A stretch of DNA of 64,000 nt from Branchiostoma floridae (lineage: Eukaryota; Chordata; Leptocardii; Amphioxiformes; Branchiostomatidae), in the NCBI RefSeq assembly GCF_000003815.2, contig NC_049997.1:15705373-15769372 (forward strand). Reading direction: 5' to 3'. A program made the translations under genes and the position numbers. The notes under the pieces are model-generated. The model made no database searches and had not been told where the DNA came from. It saw only the letters and a program-made list of their open reading frames with translations. Numbering within the stretch: the first letter of the stretch is position 1; each line of letters begins with the position of its first letter. Positions 9,391-64,000 of this stretch are shown one piece after another.

Positions 9391-10098
9391 CGCGCAACAC
9401 AACGTACCTATTCTTTTATACTATGAATCTAGTACATGATATTATACAGTTACCTACCTACCTAGTTTGTGCAGAACATTTATATACATGTAGTTAACCT
9501 ATAGAAAATTTTCCTCCAGAAGCCACCCAAAGAGATCACGAAGAGGGACGTCAGCGGAGCCGAAGAATACAAGATGGCGGACGACGACGGTGTCCTTGAG
9601 CAGTTCAACGACTGGGTAAAGGAAATTCTTGGAATGTCCGACCCGATGTTTGGACACGACACCGAAGATTACCCGGAAATGGCCGACGACAGCGCGGAGG
9701 AGCCCGACGATGATCCGGAAATGACCGATGAGATCCCGAACACTTCCGAAGCCGAACCCGAAGATGACGGCTTTATGGAATTCCTTGCCGAAATAAATGA
9801 GCTGGTGAGAGATGAAGTCTTCGGCTCCGATGAATCTGAGGAATCCGATGAAATGGAAATCCCGAACATTCCCGAAGTCACCGAAGCCGACGATAATCCG
9901 GAAATTACCGATGATATCCCGAACACTCCTGATGCGACCGAAGCCGAAGACGACGGCTTTAAGGAATTCCTTGCCGATCTAAAGGAGCTGATAAGAGAGG
10001 AAGTCTTCTCCAACGACGATTCTGAGGAATCCGATGAAACCATCGAGGAAGATTTCCCTGACGACACCCTTAAGTTCGAGCCTTTTCGTGAAGATTAG
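7493..10098 (+). CDS. Secreted acidic repeat protein
   Basis: The family is not recognised. Exon 1 is 7493-8101 (ATG, donor AAG|GTAAAA) and the terminal exon is 9520-10098 (acceptor TTTTCCTCCAG, phase 0, stop TAG). Together they give about 395 residues if no exon hides in the gap at 8330-8805. The first 23 residues form a signal peptide (hydrophobic [11 protein letters not shown]). The N-terminal part is basic, with RHRR, VKR and KR sites that could be cleaved by furin-type enzymes and repeated DPF(E/A)EF blocks. The C-terminal exon is very acidic and has two copies of a block around DDGFxEFLA and SEESDE. A TATAAA-like string lies near 7368 and AATAAA at 10418-10423. A role as an ion-binding or matrix protein is only a guess. 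Confidence 0.75.
8131..8233. repeat. Partial foldback element (half copy)
   Basis: The segment with GAGGAGGCATGACCCTGATG and GGCAGAGTT matches one arm and the loop of the hairpin element at 26530-26717. It is a diverged partial copy in the intron of the acidic protein gene. Confidence 0.5.
8330..8805. other. Assembly gap (N run)
   Basis: A run of N in the intron of the acidic protein gene. An internal exon there cannot be excluded. Confidence 0.98.
9180..9395. repeat. (TG)n microsatellite
   Basis: An interrupted TG/GTGT tract ends in alternating CGCGCG at 9382-9393. It lies about 125 bases before the acceptor of the terminal exon of the acidic protein gene. Long ORFs reported across it are repeat artefacts. 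Confidence 0.9.
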
Positions 10099-31441: not shown

Positions 31442-31493
31442 ACAGCAAGAAGAAGTATCTCTCTTGTCAGGAGCTTTTAAAAAGATGTGGGAT

Positions 31494-31840
31494 AGGCATC
31501 GAAACGTAAAGCCGATGTTAGGTTGTCCAGCTGCTAGGCATCGAAACGTAAAGCAGGTGTTAGGTTGTCCAGCTGCTAGGCATCGAAACGTAAAACAGGT
31601 GTTAGGTTGTCCAGCTGCTAGGCATCGAAACGTAAAGCAGGTGTTAGGTTGTCCAGCTGCTAGGCATCGAAACGTAAAGCAGGTGTTAGGTTGTCCAGCT
31701 GCTAGGCATCGAAATGTAAAGCAGGTGTTAGGTTGTCCAGCTGCTAGGCATCGAAACGTAAAGCAGGTGTTAGGTTGTCCAGCTGCTAGGCATCGAAACG
31801 TAAGCAGCTGTTAGGTCGCCCAGCAGGTGCTAGGTGCCCT
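31494..31840. repeat. 42-bp minisatellite, eight units
   Basis: Unit AGGCATCGAAACGTAAAGCA followed by GGTGTTAGGTTGTCCAGCTGCT, nearly perfect. The period is a multiple of three, so it creates a spurious HRNVKQVLGCPAAR repeat ORF. There is no gene context around it. Confidence 0.92.
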
Positions 31841-36107: not shown

Positions 36108-51096
<14,989 letters not shown>

Positions 51097-53448: not shown

Positions 53449-56400
53449 CTATCTTTGTTGTTGAACTTCGACCTCTGACACTGGTGTGACCTGTTGACCT
53501 TGAATGATGACCTGGGGCATGAGGCCGCCGGTCGTGTTCACAATGTTCGGTACGATGGGAACAGGCATTACAATCCCTCCATTGTTGTTCCCATTGCATA
53601 TCAAGTCATTGCTGTCTACCATTTGAACTCCATGTTGTTCAGCGCCCCCTAACAGATCAGTCGGGAACTGCAGTGCTGATGCACGAGTCTTAGTGTTTTG
53701 TCTCCTTTGCTGCTTCTTGGAGGTTTTACCACGGGTGACATCAACGTTTTGAGTCGGTCCCCCATTAGGGGCCATCTCGGAAATGACTACGCGGACAACG
53801 TCCGTATTCTGCTGTGCGTTTCGTCCTTTGCACGCTTTCTTGTGCCTGTTAAGGTGGTATTTCGTAAAGAACGCTTTGTTACAACGGTCGCAGGGGAAGT
53901 TGCGTTCGCCCGTGTGGGACTTCATGTGTTTTTTTAGGTGCTGCAGACGCCAGAAGATCTTGCCACATTCCTCACACTTGACCTCGCGGTCTCTCGTGTG
54001 CATGTACATGTGCTGCTTGACGTCAGACTGTCGCGAGAACATCTTGTCACAAAACTGGCACTTCATCTGAAAATAAGATATAAAAGGATTTTATATAGTA
54101 CGGAACAAGTATCTGAAATTCCTTGCTTATTTCCATTCAATACCAACCTTAACACATCAAGGCCATTTTCACTAGATGGCAATTGTGCTGCGGCCTTGCT
54201 GTGACCAAACATGGGTTTGTGTTTTCCCTGAAATCATACTTGAAATATCATGGAAAATGCAAAAGACTGAAAGGCAACAAAACACACAAACCTTAAAGAT
54301 TTGTTTTATATCTACAAAATTTCAGGTGTGATCTGTCAAATTTCAGGTTCAGGCATGGTCACAACAAGGTCTCCAACCAAGTACTTATTTCATTGGTTAG
54401 CTGTGAAATCTAAAAGTGAAGGGCAGTCATATGAATGGCTATATTATAGATACAGATACAGAAACAGGTAAAATTAGATCCATGGAAATGTAATTTTCTC
54501 ATGCTCACCTTCTTCTCACCAGTATGAGTGACCATGTGTGACAGTAGGTGAGCCTTTTGCCGGAACGTCTTGTTACACACAGAACAGGCATGCTTCTTCA
54601 CTCCTGGAAAAAAAACATGGTGAATGTAGCTGTTACTTAAACATTTAAGTAAAAGTCTTTCTAATGGTTTATGGTACGTGTATAAAGGGGCACTCATCAA
54701 TTTTATATCCCTTGACTTATACACAGATACATGTACGATAGTACAATGCTCTCACTAGAATTTTTTTTCAGCGTAAAAGCATCTTAGTGCAGCAAAGCCA
54801 CATGGTAACCAATGCATGTGTAAGCATTGTGGGGGGTCTGGGGGAATCCTACCCCTAAAAATTATTTTTTTAATGCAAAAAATCATTTATGATGAAAAAA
54901 GCATCTATACACATACAAACATGACTAGAAAATGCATGCATTGGGTAGGGTCTGCATGGGTTTAGTGTGTCCCATATTGCTTCAAAAACACATGCTTATA
55001 AAAAGTGAAATTCTGCAAAAGTCAGCTGAGTATGCATTCATCAATACATCGTCTACTAGCATTGAAAAATAACACACGAGACTTCCTTCTGGAATTAAGT
55101 ACCCCCTTAAGAAGTTAGGAAGACTTGTCTTACCTGTGTGTATTGTGAGATGAGTTCTTAAGTTGCTGGGATCTGTAAAGGTTTTCTCACAGTAGTTACA
55201 CTTGTGAGGTTTCACTTTGGTGTGCACCATTATATGTACCTGTGGAGAAGAATAAAAACTTAGTCTAGTAACTTGAAATCGACATTATTTAATACTAGTA
55301 CAACATACATTAATGACAGTTAGATATTCAGATAGAACATAGCATAATTAATACAAATTAAATGAATACAGAAACTGAATAAATCCTCTAAAGAGCAAGA
55401 TATTTTTCCTATGAAAGGTTAAGTGAATCCTATCTGAAAAAGATGTAACTGAGACTATTCAGAAAGTTTAATATATCATTATTTTAAGTCCATTATATTA
55501 GGGAAATTTCCCTAGCTCTGTACAATGAACTGATTCACAGGACCACAACTTCTTGGTTAAGAACTGAATGAACTACACACTTCTACCGAAAATACTCCAG
55601 ACAGAAGCTCTGAGAAAGGTGTCTGATAGACACCAAAACGTAAGCAAGTAAGTTCAACATGGTTGTGTACAAGAATTCTGTTATATCCTTAGATTCTAAC
55701 ACACTACTGTTACAAAATTACACAAAATTACCATATTGCGGCAAAAAAGTTTGGGAACATGTACACCCAACAATTTTCCTTTACCTGAAGTTTGCTTGAA
55801 GAGGTAAAGGCACGCTCACACAGGTCACACTTCCACTTGCGACCGGTCATGTCCGGGTGAGCGTACTTGGTGTGTCGGCCCAGAGCACCGAGGTCCGCAA
55901 ACTGGCGCTCACAGCTGCAGCACTTGTAAGACTGCTCTGGCTTGCTTGTAACGCCTGGGTAACAATAAGACAAAAAAAATGCCATCTTGTATTACAAAGC
56001 TTGAAAGTTCATTGTGTTGGTAAAAAAAAATCATCCTAATTTTTTATGTAATTTCCAACACAAAGAAAACCAGCATTATGATCTAATGCTTAATATCTAT
56101 ATTAGTGATACAAAGTTTTTTAATCTACATTTCTAAGTTTTCTATTAGCATTTGAGAAAAAAAGTATGGAAGTTTGGGACTAGTCCACTACCAGCTCTTC
56201 TATCTTGAAAGTGGTACCTTTGGCTTTAAGTCACATCTGAGAAGATATACACAACTGGGGCTAAAGGTGGGCTCAATTTCAACTGAGTGAGAAAATTGAG
56301 TGAAAAATTTCTTTGCCAATATGCGGGGATGCAAATTGGATGCAAACTGAACTTAAGCCTACATTCCTACCGGTAAGTTTTGCATAGTTCCCAGCGACCC

Positions 56401-59400
56401 CCATGAGAAGTTCGTCCCCCTCGGCTATGTTCTTCCTGGAAGTGAAGAAGATGTAACCACCCCCTTCCCCCCCCCCCCCACACACACCAGGTTCTGTTTT
56501 CCTACCTGTTAGTTTTGCATAGTTCCCAGCAAACCACATGAGAAGTTCTTCCCCCTCTGCTATGTCCTTACAGGAAGTGAAGAAGATGTCCCCCCCCCCC
56601 CACACACACACACCTTATTCTGTTTTCCTACCTGTTAGTTTTGCATAGTTCCCAGCAAACCACATGAGAAGTTCGTCCCCCTCGGCTATGTCCTTACAGG
56701 AAGTGAAGAAGATGTCCCCCCCACACTGGTGTGCCACCAGGTTCTGTTCCAGCGACGTTCGCGCACGTTTCACGAACATCATCCAGTTGGCCTCGTTCTC
56801 ATCTCTCGCATCAATAAAATGACTGGAGCGCTCGTCTCTAAAAATCTGGAAAGAGCAATAAATAAAAAATCATTTAAAAAACTAAATCAACTGGATTGCT
56901 TCTTTCTCAAAATCTGAAATGTGTGTATTACAATTTCATTTGTTAAACGGTCATTGTAGTCAAAATTAAGTTGAAATCAAGTACAATTTCAATGTTTTTG
57001 TTAAACTTTGTAGGCAAGTATTCCTATAGTTGCATTGTTGAAAATTATTACAAAATCATCATTCTTACAACTGTTTTAGTTTGTTACAAACATTGTCATG
57101 ACATTCTTTTATTCTACTTAAATTGTTTTAATACATTGTTGCCATATCATAACCCAATAACGTAACACAATAATTGAGTATTCTACAATTATGCATCTAA
57201 GTTTGCTTTTACACTTAGTAACAGTTTTCTAGATTTTGGAGAAAATAAGTACAAAAAAAAAATAGCTAATAGAATTGTAATTATTTTCAGTTCTACATGC
57301 ATGTAAAACGACAATTGCTCACCTCCCACATATTGGTCCAGTCAGACTCACTCTCCACATCTGACTTCTTCACAATCTTACCCTGAAGAGGACCAAACTG
57401 GGTTCTGGCTTGGATGGCTGTTCTAGTAAATACCCCTGAAAAAGGTTTGAACAGTTGAGAACAAATTCAAACTTATACAATAATCCAAAAGAACACACAA
57501 AATCTCTAAGTTTGGTCACTAACTATTGCAAAATTTAATAAGGTCATTAGAGCAAGCAACACCCTGGGGAGTTTAATGCAATGTTTTAAATAATGAATCC
57601 CTTCCTTTGATTTGTTACTTATATTCTGAATAAAAGGAATTGTTTTTAGACTAAAATTATGTATGTGGCTCTGAATGGTTATATTTACATGTTTGTGAAA
57701 GCAAAACCTGTATTATTTTTTCCTTGGGACACAACAGGGTTGTAGCCAGCCTGAAATCATTTTCAGTCCCCTTGATTTTGAATGGGAATCCTATCGAGCA
57801 CCGAAGGCATGGCGTGACATTGCGCGTCATTTCTAGGGGGTCTGGGTCCCAGAAAATTTTTAAATCAAGACTCTCTGAAACACTATGTCCAGCATTTGAG
57901 GTGCAAATTTTGCTTGTAGACTAAGATGTTCAATGGCATCTGTTTTGGTGAAGAAGAACACATGGGTTTCAGTTTTTTTTATATCTTTACATATCAATTT
58001 TTGTCTGTCCCAGGGGACGGAATGGGGAAAACTTTTTTCAGTCCCCAGCTGCAAAATTCCTTCAAAGGACTGAAGGACAGGTGCTGGCTACAACCCTGGG
58101 ACATAATCTTAGTTTGAAAATGAAAAAAAAAATGGACATGCAAATCCGAGAAGCAACAAATAAAATTGGCATGGCTTTACCTGTTCCTGAAGTAGTGATA
58201 TTAGAAGGTTGAAGAGCCAGGTCCCTGGGTAGAGTCATTCTGGCATGGGACTCTATAGGTGTGTCCTGTACCATGTTAGGTACTCCATGGAGGGTACATA
58301 CAGTAGGGTAGGCCTTCTCACAACTTACACACCCTGGGCGTAGGAAAACAAGAAAATTTAGTTTTATCTAAATGCACAATTTACATTACTGCATACAAAT
58401 AATTACTATGTAACAGTACAATATAGAAGTGACATAAATATACATGTAGATACAAATGCAATACCTTTCAACATGTATTATGTATTAAAAGCTCACAGTG
58501 AGTTTTAAAGAATTATATAATTACAGGACATTGTGCATGTATTTTTTTTTTCCTTTTTTTTTTTTTACTCAATGGTCACCACGTAACAAGGCCATGAAGG
58601 CCACTCAACAAGGTTACAGGTTACATGATTGGAACTGTAACAGCAACTCTTTGCCCTAGGTCAGAAACATAATGATGTATGCAATAAAGGAAAAGTTAAA
58701 ATTTTGCTAGTAGGTAACATCTTTTAAACTATTCCACCCTGTGAGGGTAGAAGCTGATTGTAAAAAAATATGATTTTGGAAATGGTCAGATGCTTTAGAC
58801 AAATATATTTTAGTCAGTGTCACAGAGGAAAGCTGGTAAGGTTTTATACCTTACCTATGATCATCAAATGAGATGACGACAAATTCTAATAGTCTAATAG
58901 GAAAAAGTGGAGATGGGCGCTGCCCTATGCACCACCTGGTACAGAAATGAAATTTGAACTTACAGAAGTCTGTTTTGATTGGTTCGTTCAGTTCTTCCTC
59001 CAACTGCCTGGCGACTGCCTCGAGCGATCGTTCCCCGCTACCCACGGGAACGTGGTTCTGAATGGTTGGCTGGAGAAGTGATTCCAGTACACTGCACGTC
59101 GTGACCGTCAGGTTGTTTGAGTTTGGGAAAACGGAGATACTCGACATCGGGACTGTTGTCACATTCACGGTAGATGTGTTCCCTCCCTGGAAAAATTCAA
59201 ACAGATTCAATTTTATTGTTTACTGTAAATGCAGAAATATACGCAGAAGCTTTATGTTTTCACAATGGCCACATCTCCGCGAACTTAAAACCTCCGCACT
59301 GTTAAATTAATTTAGTTGGGAAAATGAAAATTGTCTTTCCTGGTTTAGGTTGCTTTTTTGTAAGTCCACCTTGTATTGTTGTGTCTTTTTTTAAAAATGA

Positions 59401-61561
59401 ATAAAGGTTATGTTTAAAAAAAAAAAAAAAAAAACTTAAAACCTCCATCGTAGTTTTTTACTAAAATCTATGGCTCTACAGCGAGCACTCCATTTTCCCG
59501 CTACCGCAGAAGGAAATTCCTGCGAACTTAAATACATTCACAGTACTGCTGCTGCATGTAAGAAGTTCCTAATATAGTATGATGATTTTAGCAGCAAGGT
59601 TGGCAGTAGGCTTAACTGCACTGACCTTATTGAACATTTTCAAAAGCGGAAACATTTTTGCTGCCTTGCAAAGATGAACATAAACATTGACATGTGGCTC
59701 TCCTATCTTGGAATGGAAGTGGTAACTGTGGCTTAATCAAATATGATTGCTCTACCTAAACTGCAACCTATGGTACAAACCTGCAGAATGTTTTGTTGGT
59801 TGACAACATGAGTGTTGATGGGAGGGAGGGCTGCTGTGCTGGTTGTTAGTGTGGTTGTTGCAGCGATGAGGGTGAGACTGGTCGTCAGTAAGTCTGAAGG
59901 GTTGACAGAAGACAGCAGTGATGATGGAAGGGTCTCTGACACAACTGGTAACTGAAGAGTCCCTGCAAGGCAGAAATGGACAAATTCGTGAGTGGATCAA
60001 ACCATTCTGGCCAAAAATGGAGTAGGTAATTTCCCGAGCAGCCTCGTAATCCCTGCTTCACCTATTGAGTCCGTGAAGTCAAGCTTGCCTATTAAGCTAA
60101 TTATGTTTCTGACTAATAAGGAGAAGAGATGCTGCTACAGTTATCGCTATGGGCGCCGCTCTTCATCTTCGTGATGGTAACATCAGGCCCAACGAAGTTG
60201 AGAGAGGTTTTTCCCACTATTTTCATTACTTGGTACATCCCTATTAGGCACTACAAACATTGGCTTAAGATGGATCAAATAATTATAAATGGCATATATA
60301 TCATTCATATATTCTTGAATAGAGAGACTCTTTAGAGAGACTATACACTTATTTCCACTGATGTTTTGTTGACAATTTGTCACCTTCTTCAGGGCAATTC
60401 TGACTGGTTCACATTGTACTGCAGCATAGGTGTCGCTGCTTTCAGATGCAATGATCCTAAATTTATCCCGAAATCCTACTCCAAGACCCAGAAAATTAAA
60501 CTGGGCATGGGATGGTTTCAGCAAGGTATGATTATCAAATATAATCACCAGACGACATTTGTCGGAGAGAAGTGATGTCCAGTGTGAGACTCTTGTCCAG
60601 CCCCACCGGCGTGTTCTGGACACTGGTCAGGTTGTTGACCATCGGCCTCTCCAGAGGGAACAACATGGGGATGGTGGTGGTCAGTCCTGAGCTCAGAGTG
60701 ACCGGGATGTTGGCTATGGACACAGGAATTCCTGAAGAAGAGATCACATGATAGGTAAATTTTATTTATCTAATAGTAGTACATACTTAATTTTTGACAT
60801 TCTTCTTTCTTGGGGTTATGATGAACTTATCAATTTCAGGAAGTCTATGGCACACACCGCCTTTGTTCAGGGATAGTTGTAAAGCTCTGATGTAGATGGC
60901 TTCTAAAATCCCTCTAGCAAGAAAGTCTGGCTCTACAAGTAAGTCCAAGATTTTAACTTTGTCCAGTGAGACCGAATGACTCGGTGATTCTATATGTATA
61001 TGTTGGGAAACTTCTGAGGTTGTTGAACTCTGGAGTTTGTGCTCAAGGAACCTGGTCTTGAGTGATCTTTCAGTCTCCCCAATGTAGGTTTCCTTATATA
61101 TATAATTATAATTACAAGGGCCTCCAAACAGAGACAATGGCATGGGCACCATAGACTTCTTGCAACTTATGATTATGATCCACTGCTCACTGAGTTCTAT
61201 CTGCATCACGTGATGTTTATGGCAGTAGCCAGGATTGTTCATTCCTTGACAAAACTGCTGCAGTTCAGTCGAAAATGTGCATGTGGGTGAGTCAAATTTT
61301 TGTGTTGGAAATTACAGTTAACTAGTGCAAGATTGACTTCTACTAGTATTTATACCAACACAGATGAACTTTCAATTTAAGTTAACATGATGTTTAAAGA
61401 AATCATTCGTAATAAAACAACAAATACTACAAATCAACTAGCTTACCTGTTCCAGATGGTGCCTGAGGAATTGTGGGAAGGGTCACATGACTGGTGCCGA
61501 TGACGTTGCTGGCAGAGTTGCCAAGATGTTCCAAATTGATGGTGGACAGGGAGTCATTCAT
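53449..61561 (-). CDS. PRDM4: PR/SET-domain zinc finger protein PRDM4
   Basis: Eleven coding exons on the minus strand: 61447-61561 (its acceptor extends the exon to 61588), 60549-60731, 59781-59962, 58964-59186, 58181-58333, 57323-57435, 56632-56845, 55785-55954, 55134-55239, 54509-54603 and 53449-54066. Phases all agree and give about 723 residues (human 801). The N-terminal third is Ser/Thr-rich. A zinc knuckle C-x2-C-x7-C-x2-H (WCVSCEKAYPTVC) lies near 234, followed by DTPIESHARMTLP, which matches PRDM4. The PR/SET domain is near 285-393 (RTQFGPLQG, NWMMFVKRAR, EQNLVAHQ, DELLMWFAGNYA). Seven C2H2-type fingers follow; the last is C2HC (KYHLNRHKKACKG). Finger strings DPSNLRTH, QKAHLLSHMV and KYHLNRH match PRDM4 specifically. 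Known PRDM4 is a nuclear regulator linked to PRMT5 and p75NTR. The tail is Gln-rich (EVEVQQQR). Confidence 0.92.
56371..56632. repeat. Two extra copies of the PR-domain exon 3' end
   Basis: Just downstream of the PRDM4 exon 56632-56845, its last ~90 bases plus the donor are repeated twice, with pseudo-donors at about 56505 and 56370. The copies read IFFTSCKDIAEGEELLMWFA and IFFTSRKNIAEGDELLMGVA. Each starts at a GTGTG...GGGGGGG run that matches the CAGTGTGGGGGGGAC inside the real exon. No good acceptor precedes them. Confidence 0.85.
58542..58672 (-). mobile_element. SINE 3' end, antisense
   Basis: A poly(T) run, then CTCAATGGTCACCACGTAAC, AAGGCC and AACTGTAACAGCAACTCTTT, is the inverse of the tail of the SINE at 48441-48926. 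5'-truncated, in a PRDM4 intron. Confidence 0.85.
59221..59545. mobile_element. MITE family C, copy 3, with insertion
   Basis: TACTGTAAATGCAGAA at the left and AAATACATTCACAGTA at the right, with interior CTCCGCGAACTTAAAACCTC. Interrupted at 59296-59432 by a poly(A)-tailed sequence. In a PRDM4 intron. Confidence 0.8.
59296..59432 (+). mobile_element. Poly(A)-tailed retro-insertion
   Basis: About 137 bases end in AATAAAGGTTATGTTT plus a run of about 20 A. They are flanked on both sides by AACTTAAAACCTCC, a 14-base target duplication. This is the hallmark of LINE-driven retrotransposition. The source transcript is unknown. Confidence 0.75.
59986..60141 (+). mobile_element. SINE internal fragment
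   Basis: GTGGATCAAACCATTCTGGC, TAATTTCCCGAGCAGCC, CCTGCTTCACCTATTGAGTC and GCTGCTACAGTT match the body of the SINE at 48441. Head and tail are missing. Confidence 0.75.
60787..61130 (-). mobile_element. GIY-YIG endonuclease remnant of a Penelope-like element
   Basis: The minus frame contains YKETYIGETERSLKTRFLEH, then a helix-rich stretch and RGILEAIYIRALQLSLNKGG. This is the GIY-YIG fold pattern (YIGET, R-x3-H, Glu in the EAIYI helix) of the C-terminal domain of Penelope-like retroelements. The reverse transcriptase part is absent. It sits in the first PRDM4 intron, beside family P sequence (61140-61380). Confidence 0.75.
61140..61380. mobile_element. Foldback repeat family P, copy 3
   Basis: It shares ATGATCCACTGCTCACTGAG, CATTCCTTGACAAAACTGCT, CAGTTCAGTCGAAAATGTGC and the end CAACACAGATGAACTT with 28725-29062 and 39160-39395. 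Its proximity to the GIY-YIG remnant links the family to Penelope-like elements. Confidence 0.6.
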
Positions 61562-61589
61562 GGTGCATCGTTTGTGTCAACACTCGGGC

Positions 61590-62087
61590 TAAAAACAAAC
61601 AACAACAATGTAAGAGTTGATGGTGGACAGGGAGTCATTCATGGTGCATCGTTTGTGTCAACACTCGGGCTATAAACAACAACAACAATGTAAGAGTTGA
61701 TGGTGGACAGGGAGTCATTCATGATGGTGCATCGTTTGTGTCAACACTCGGGCTATAAACAACAACAACAATGTAAGAGTTGATGGTGGACAGGGAGTCA
61801 TTCATGGTGCATCGTTTGTGTCAACACTCAGGCTGTAAACAACAACAACAATGTAAGAGTTGATGGTGGACAGGGAGTCATTCATGGTGCATCGTTTGTG
61901 TCAACACTTGGGCAATAAACAACAACAATGTAAGAGTTGATGGTGGACAGGGAGTCATTTATGGTGCATCGTTTGTGTCAACACTCAGGCTGTAAACAAC
62001 AACAACAATGTAAGAGTTGATGGTGGACAGGGAGTCATTCATGGTGCATCGTTTGTGTCAACACTCGGTCATAAACAGCAACAACAA
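61590..62087. repeat. Tandem array of the PRDM4 start-exon segment
   Basis: Units of about 77-83 bp (TGATGGTGGACAGGGAGTCA...GTGTCAACACTCGGGCT, then AACAACAACAATGTAAGAGT) run into the gap at 62088, six or more beyond the genic copy. On the minus strand each unit carries an acceptor-like TTTATAG, then CCCGAGTGTTGACACAAACG, an ATG and MNDSLSTIN codons. It then leaves the exon sequence before the donor. Confidence 0.9.
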
Positions 62088-62388
62088 NNNNNNNNNNNNN
62101 NNNNNNNNNNNNNNNNNNNNNNNNNNNNNNNNNNNNNNNNNNNNNNNNNNNNNNNNNNNNNNNNNNNNNNNNNNNNNNNNNNNNNNNNNNNNNNNNNNNN
62201 NNNNNNNNNNNNNNNNNNNNNNNNNNNNNNNNNNNNNNNNNNNNNNNNNNNNNNNNNNNNNNNNNNNNNNNNNNNNNNNNNNNNNNNNNNNNNNNNNNNN
62301 NNNNNNNNNNNNNNNNNNNNNNNNNNNNNNNNNNNNNNNNNNNNNNNNNNNNNNNNNNNNNNNNNNNNNNNNNNNNNNNNNNNNNNNN
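62088..62388. other. Assembly gap (N run)
   Basis: A run of N starting inside the tandem array, so the copy number cannot be read. Confidence 0.98.
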
Positions 62389-64000
62389 TCAAATACGGGC
62401 TCCAAATCTCCCATGTCTAGCCGAATTCGAACCTGCTTCCACAATGTTCCATCTGACGTAATTCGAACCGAACCCGTGTTCTATTTGGGGTCATCTGCGG
62501 CCGTTGCCGGTAAAACACTGCTGGCTAGCCTTTTTTGCCAACCTCATTGAATTAGCCAAAAAAGATAGTTTTTCCCCAATATAAACAAATTTCTGGACAG
62601 TACATTTATGCTATCACTTTGTTTGGGACATGTAATATTTAACAAAACTACTGACGTTTGTATTGGTGACCTTGAATATTATAAGTGTTGTTTACACCGG
62701 TATCAATTTCATCCTCCCGCTATCCGTGCGTCATGACATGCGTGCAAACATCGTTTAAGATCGCGACCAAGAAGAGTCCAAATTAAGTCATTGACGGCTC
62801 AAAATAACCGCAATGGTTTTCCCGAGATTTTTGTTTTTGGGATTTTTAGAAAATGCCTTCGATTTTGAATTATTGGTAATTAAGTGCGAAAAATGCAATT
62901 TTTTGGCATATTTTCGACTGTAACTTTGCTTGAAATCAAAAATTAAAAAATCCCCAAAACAGAAAGTTTTCTTTTCCTCATAGATTACGAAAAATATAAA
63001 AATTAAGAATTTCCGATGACACATGCGGCCCATCTTATCAAGAGTTTGGTCAAAGTAAAGGCCTTCCTGAAAACAGTAAATGATCGTCTCTTTTAGCAAC
63101 ATCGAAACAAAACAGCTATTCGAATTCAAAAGACAAGATTCAAAGTATGTAAAATTGCTAATTTAATGTTATTTGGAAACATTTTCCTTGTCAAAACATT
63201 TTGTTTATTTTCAAATAATTTACGGGTAGCCAAAAGTAGGCTTTCAGTAACCCGATATTCTGTCGAACGCGCATATCAACGGGAAAGAATACCCTAGCAA
63301 CCGACCGCCGTGTTTCTATATGATTGCAACTTAGATCAAGGAGGTTGATAAGAGCTTTTTTTGACTCAACAGTATGTTTTTACTGCTTGACAACTTTTCT
63401 GTGTTCACCATTTCCCAGCGGTGAACCAGGTGACTCTCCTGGGCAGGGTAGGGCAGGACCCTCAGCTCCGGGGAGGGCTCGGGAACCGCTCTGTAACTGT
63501 CTTCAGTATGGCAACCAATGAGAGATGGCAAGGGGAGGAAGGTTGGTTTTAAAGTTCAACCTTTGTAAATTTGCATTGATATTGAAGTTTTTCAACTGAC
63601 ATACAACACAAAATTTGCTCACGTCAAATTTTCAGTTGCACATCCGTCAACCTTCTTCAGGAGTGATGATTCAATTACTCTGAGCACGTGACTTGAAGGC
63701 ACCAGAATCATAGATGCCTGGCAGGTGGTATCGACTCCCATCTCTGTAAAGTGTCGGCTGGTGTGCTGTATGGTTTGCGTTGTATGACAGTTGAAAAACT
63801 TCAATATGAAATATATCAACACAGATGAGCTTTCATGCTAAAATTTGAATTGATGTTGGATGAAGCCAATAGTGGGATTAGTGTCAAGCTGTCTGTACAT
63901 ATGTCTGTTTGTCTGTTGGTTTTTTTTTCTTTATGCCAATCATGATCATGACTGACAGGAAGTAGAGATCAGAGTTGTTAGAGTGTCAGGAAGTAGGCAG
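62389..64000. other. PRDM4 5' flank; no gene recognised
   Basis: AT-rich, apart from a GC-rich patch at about 63410-63500 that could be a PRDM4 promoter or non-coding first exon. At 63540-63860 lies a family P-like repeat: GTCAACCTTCTTCAGGAGTG, inverted TTGAAAAACTTCAATAT/ATATTGAAGTTTTTCAA ends, and CAACACAGATGAGCTTTC. Confidence 0.4.

Follow-up and report, generated by a model that had tools for sequence, protein, structure and literature searches.

Tandem repeats that copy exon/intron boundaries have been described in amphioxus under the term 'mirages', with earlier cases known from Adh and other loci (PMC3087553; this source, PMC3902484 and PMC7269912 are cited throughout for the portions drawn on here). 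Many, but not all, of the published mirage repeats carry the AG/GT signals, and RT-PCR results were read as regular splicing with which the mirages did not interfere, while the authors allow that mirage signals could act as cryptic sites. Furthermore, published mirages vary between haplotypes as well as somatically, and the idea was put forward that such arrays seed new introns (PMC3087553). PGBD5 was described as carrying two arrays of this kind, troponin C being cited as a further case (PMC3902484).

The PRDM4-like gene studied here, located in a stretch of 64,000 nucleotides from Branchiostoma floridae (C19, 15705373–15769372; hereafter, the window), features two comparable arrays, one at its start exon and one at its SET-domain exon E7. 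The Adh mirages (Canestro et al. 2002, as cited in PMC3087553) are likewise tandem repeats over exon–intron boundaries, length and somatic instability having been described for them; their units are quoted as 10–72 bp, compared to approximately 80 bp for the PRDM4 start-exon unit. In BflGb6, the acceptor side is repeated, namely the 3′ end of the intron and the 5′ part of exon 2, as in the PRDM4 start-exon array, with 6 and 3 units in two haplotypes and splice signals in many, but not all, of them (PMC3087553). In BflGb9, the exon 2 end that borders the following intron is duplicated (157 bp), a donor-side case like the PRDM4 E7 array; accordingly, the BflGb6 and BflGb9 geometries both occur in one gene, PRDM4. 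The globin units copy the edges of exon 2 (150–160 bp in BflGb6; PMC3087553), whereas the PRDM4 start-exon unit is approximately 80 bp long and includes the initiator ATG. PGBD5 resembles PRDM4 in that two arrays (60 and 108 bp) overlap splice sites in one lancelet gene; they were judged to be real and to leave splicing undisturbed, their copy number differing between two sequence versions. The PGBD5 arrays overlap exons 3 and 4, and a start codon such as that of the PRDM4 unit does not figure in the portion of PMC3902484 drawn on here.

By geometry and decay, the PRDM4 arrays appear best filed with the published mirages. Two features stand out: the start-exon unit contains the initiator codon, and a single gene carries one array at an acceptor edge and another at a donor edge. 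An initiator codon within the repeat unit was not found in the mirage descriptions taken from PMC3087553 and PMC3902484. In the titles and abstract beginnings of the open-licence literature, no report of a PRDM4 mirage was found, and no open-licence paper was found that ties an amphioxus minisatellite to a start codon and an intron.

The PRDM4-like Gene

Eleven coding exons joined at GT/AG signals yield a single open frame of 723 aa. The gene features referred to below are as follows:

53449–61561, minus strand: PRDM4-like coding region with 11 coding exons (spliced model, PDB and Pfam matches)
61447–61588, minus strand: first coding exon E1, with the putative acceptor TTTTTAG/ as read from the sequence, ATG at 61561–61559 and donor CAG/GTAAGC
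56632–56845, minus strand: genuine exon E7, end of the PR/SET domain, with donor CAG/GTAGGA

Comparison with solved structures covered the first 395 residues of the predicted protein. For residues 250–393, the best match was PRDM4 (3db5, E 3.6e-28), followed by PRDM9 (E 3.5e-25), and residues 233–261 matched the PRDM4 zinc knuckle (2l9z, E 2.9e-4). A Pfam scan of the full protein detected a PR domain (134.3 bits, model PRDM2_PR), SET and C2H2 fingers; the Zn_ribbon_PRDM4 model reached 19.9 bits, which is under its curated cut-off of 25.8. The 723-aa model thus possesses the PRDM4 domain set, consisting of the PR/SET domain, a PRDM4-type zinc knuckle and C2H2 fingers. Its designation as PRDM4-like, already proposed in the original prediction, is supported by the best match to 3db5, the PR domain and the C2H2 fingers.

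The intron between E1 and E2 contains an ORF of 174 aa (60787–61311, minus strand) without a Pfam match. A stretch within it presumably resembles the GIY-YIG nuclease of Penelope-like elements.

Architecture of the Start-Exon Array

The array upstream of the PRDM4 start and the gap next to it were delimited as follows:

61536–62087, minus strand: start-exon tandem array composed of 6 decoy units and the genuine copy (TRF, core matching and unit reading)
62088–62388, no strand: assembly gap of 301 N, at which the visible array ends

TRF reported the array with a period of 80 (6.9 copies, 91% matches, score 885) and, for the same positions, with a period of 157 (3.4 copies, 94% matches), the dimer achieving the higher score of 980. 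A 34-bp core of the unit was found six times in the window with up to three mismatches (five decoys and the genuine copy), compared to a chance expectation of 0.00 from 100 shuffles; the core search overlooks the unit with a 3-bp insertion. From the end of the gap to position 64000, no further core match was detected at up to three mismatches. Both the array and its termination in an assembly gap were found where they had been predicted.

Full decoy units are 77–83 bp long and show a constant order: CTCTTAC, a TTG/TTT tract, AG, a 27-nt leader and eight codons from the ATG plus two bases. The motif CTCTTAC is taken by us to resemble a branch point. The exon-like stretch is kept in every decoy up to ...CCACCATCAA, that is, eight codons (ATG included) and two bases. 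The outermost of the six decoys is truncated by the gap, and the genuine copy continues into the exon. Unit reading and the spliced model together support the earlier claim that the acceptor and start region of the first PRDM4 coding exon has been copied.

Decay and Variation among the Decoys

It had been claimed that each unit copies acceptor and ATG. This holds for three of the six decoys (U4–U6), in which both are present. The acceptor AG is intact in four decoys and missing from U1 and U3, and the start ATG is intact in five, U2 carrying ATA instead. Exons beginning at the decoy acceptors would start at 61669, 61752, 61832 and 61989. The loss of AG or ATG from half of the decoys is what would be expected if constraint did not act on every copy. 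Selection for the loss of AG was considered as well; with two of six decoys affected, the cases were too few to judge.

Furthermore, the units carry private variants, the AG having been lost in two ways, the ATG having changed to ATA and a CAT having been added. U2 and U4 have variants in common that are absent from the other units. The best TRF score at 157 and the variants common to U2 and U4 point to a turnover that may have proceeded in blocks of two units. Departures from the consensus amounted to 8 in 178 intron-like bases versus 6 events in 374 exon-like bases, the genuine copy being included, the counts being small and their significance untested. Neutral drift alone need not yield such a difference. 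The better-kept exon-like part would fit a neutral as well as a functional reading.

A Second Array at the SET-Domain Exon

The second array covers the other edge of an exon of the same gene:

56364–56722, minus strand: second PRDM4 array, comprising the end of SET-domain exon E7 and its donor (TRF, 2.8 copies of approximately 126 bp)

It is located in ungapped sequence and consists of three copies at 126- and 135-bp spacing, the last one being partial. Its tandem units span the exon/intron boundary at the donor side, and the extra copies sit on the intron side of the exon, like those of the start-exon array. The donor GTAGGA is kept in all three copies (the genuine one and both further ones). 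Reading through E7 beyond the genuine donor leads to an in-frame TAA soon after, within copy 1. This array was absent from the original prediction.

Survey for Other Boundary-Spanning Arrays

The survey sampled the same genome at 20 chosen fixed positions, 10 kb being taken at 5 Mb on each of contigs C1–C19 and additionally at 15 Mb on C1 (14,845 of the 200,000 bases being N). In total, 27 non-overlapping arrays with a period of at least 20 were detected. Pfam scans covered 12 of these, taking at least one overlapping ORF of each, though not in every case all of them; of the remainder, 7 were without a qualifying ORF and 8 (period 20–30) were left unscanned. Among the 12 scanned arrays, no mirage at a cellular Pfam exon was found, the sample being too small for a rate. 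Boundary-spanning arrays were thus not seen to be common in this small sample of 200 kb.

The sole Pfam match in the survey was a PNMA (gag-like) ORF, which comprises 270 aa (stretch L022, 5946–6755; E 1.1e-6) and features a 54-bp repeat near its start. Long minisatellites were observed in L017 (441–2694, 43 bp × 51.9) and L019 (7679–9422, 98 bp × 17.8). The window itself holds 14 arrays, including the two of PRDM4 and four others that were scanned likewise, eight being left out. A 42-bp repeat with 7.9 copies (31493–31824) is open in a 141-aa minus-strand frame, the QLQ and CxC2 Pfam hits of which look like chance on a repetitive peptide. A 28-bp minisatellite occupies 44352–44998 (22.9 copies, 94% matches by TRF), and the ORF flanking it (44088–44369, minus strand) had no Pfam match. 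A 186-bp repeat (9704–10039, 1.8 copies) lies within an acidic ORF of 197 aa, likewise without a Pfam match.

Origin of the Arrays

We consider it quite likely that the start-exon array is a mirage minisatellite spanning the junction of a leader intron with E1, with the outer copies drifting and the innermost acceptor being the one most likely used, and that the separate E7 array is of the same nature. Slippage and/or unequal exchange would have grown the array from a segment straddling the 3′ end of the leader intron and the start of E1. Selection would preserve the copy adjoining the remainder of E1 as the genuine acceptor and initiation site, and the remaining copies would drift in the non-coding flank. 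The spliceosome would most likely keep to the innermost acceptor, so that the decoys would leave with the intron or see rare use. A separate second array of like kind repeats the donor side of exon E7. The start-exon units straddle the putative boundary and accumulate on its non-coding side. As published for other mirages, the splice signal persists in many units of the start-exon array without being universal (AG in four of six decoys), the GT of the E7 array being kept in three of three copies. From this picture, we infer that a leader intron exists and that the genuine sites are used, and that both PRDM4 arrays are probably neutral, length-variable minisatellites flanking a constrained exon on its non-coding side; the cell most likely ignores the start-exon array. 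By analogy with the published mirages, it is plausible that the latter array is long and length-variable, as had been predicted.

Splice sites were scored in a crude, frequency-based manner, the acceptor scoring covering the genuine site and U2–U6. The genuine acceptor achieved 8.5, compared to 8.5 for U5 and U6, 9.7 for U2 and U4, and −2.1 for U3. Since the intact decoy acceptors (8.5–9.7) match the genuine one, the sequence alone does not explain their being ignored.

Two further features are relevant to the position of the array:

64001–66919: second gap, separating the array region from stronger donors
63421–63543 (about), plus strand: SSB-domain exon, divergent to PRDM4 (Pfam PF00436)

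There might be no leader intron, transcription beginning within the array or farther upstream, and the array would then be a promoter or an unspliced 5′ UTR with incidental AG motifs. The minus-strand donors in the visible part (62389–64000) are all weak, the best of them scoring 5.5 (63622), approximately as much as the weakest of the ten PRDM4 donors (5.6), and little room is left by the opposite-strand SSB-domain exon, which starts approximately 1.3 kb beyond the array. However, the gap adjoining the array sits exactly where a donor could be, and a leader exon may lie within it; higher-scoring donors (9.2 at 67594 and 8.4 at 68308) appear only past the second gap. Moreover, every element of a 3′ splice site (CTTAC, a T-rich tract and AG) is present in full units, and translation would presumably be crippled if an unspliced leader contained at least 17 upstream ATGs. 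Because only weak donors lie nearby and the stronger ones are past the second gap, the leader intron is proposed rather than observed, and the array may instead occupy a promoter or an unspliced 5′ UTR, a position that we regard as unlikely. A mitochondrial-SSB-like stretch was also noticed by eye at approximately 67584–67769 in window numbering.

Consequences of Decoy Use

The visible decoys contain 17 ATGs, opening ORFs of 4–28 codons, all of which close before the real PRDM4 start or overlap it, the last one ending on it. A further upstream ATG, at 61568 within E1, opens an ORF of four codons that overlaps the PRDM4 start. The array was also considered as the source of an N-terminal extension; this was rejected, because none of the 17 decoy ATGs opens into the PRDM4 frame. 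Since all decoy ORFs end without joining that frame, retained units would be expected to lower translation and to leave the protein unaltered.

Alternatively, the array could act as a length-variable brake: in some transcripts, splicing into decoys or starting in them would add two or three upstream ATGs per unit, less PRDM4 would be translated, and its dose would be tuned by array length. This would agree with the three decoys that keep both AG and ATG, with intact decoy acceptors that score equal to the genuine one, with the short ORFs of the 17 decoy ATGs and with the better-kept exon-like portion. However, AG or ATG is gone from the other three decoys, and amphioxus mirages with intact signals were reported not to disturb regular splicing, so we hold such a brake to be quite improbable. 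The original prediction had decoy acceptors and starts acting on the transcript. Such a role is putative. Mirages in the literature, among them many that retain AG/GT, reportedly do not interfere with regular splicing, and by that precedent, active decoys are unlikely. It is very doubtful that array length serves as a heritable and somatically variable dial in which decoy-acceptor use sets the number of upstream ORFs and thereby the amount of PRDM4.

An artefact of assembly or of two-haplotype merging as the source of the copy number is highly improbable, for although the array terminates in a gap and the B. floridae assembly, 94.5% of whose sequence is in 19 chromosomal scaffolds, rests on approximately tenfold Sanger reads with divergent haplotypes merged by HaploMerger2 (PMC7269912), the private variants described above indicate that the units are not mistaken duplicates of one, and the second array is located in ungapped sequence.

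Implications for Amphioxus Genes

The PRDM4-like gene extends the list of amphioxus mirages found here in the open-licence literature by one array at an acceptor/start edge and one at a donor edge. If the dial reading were true, a mirage containing the initiator would set PRDM4 protein output. Such loci represent natural tests of how the spliceosome chooses among near-identical neighbouring sites, and they also test the published idea that arrays seed new introns (PMC3087553).
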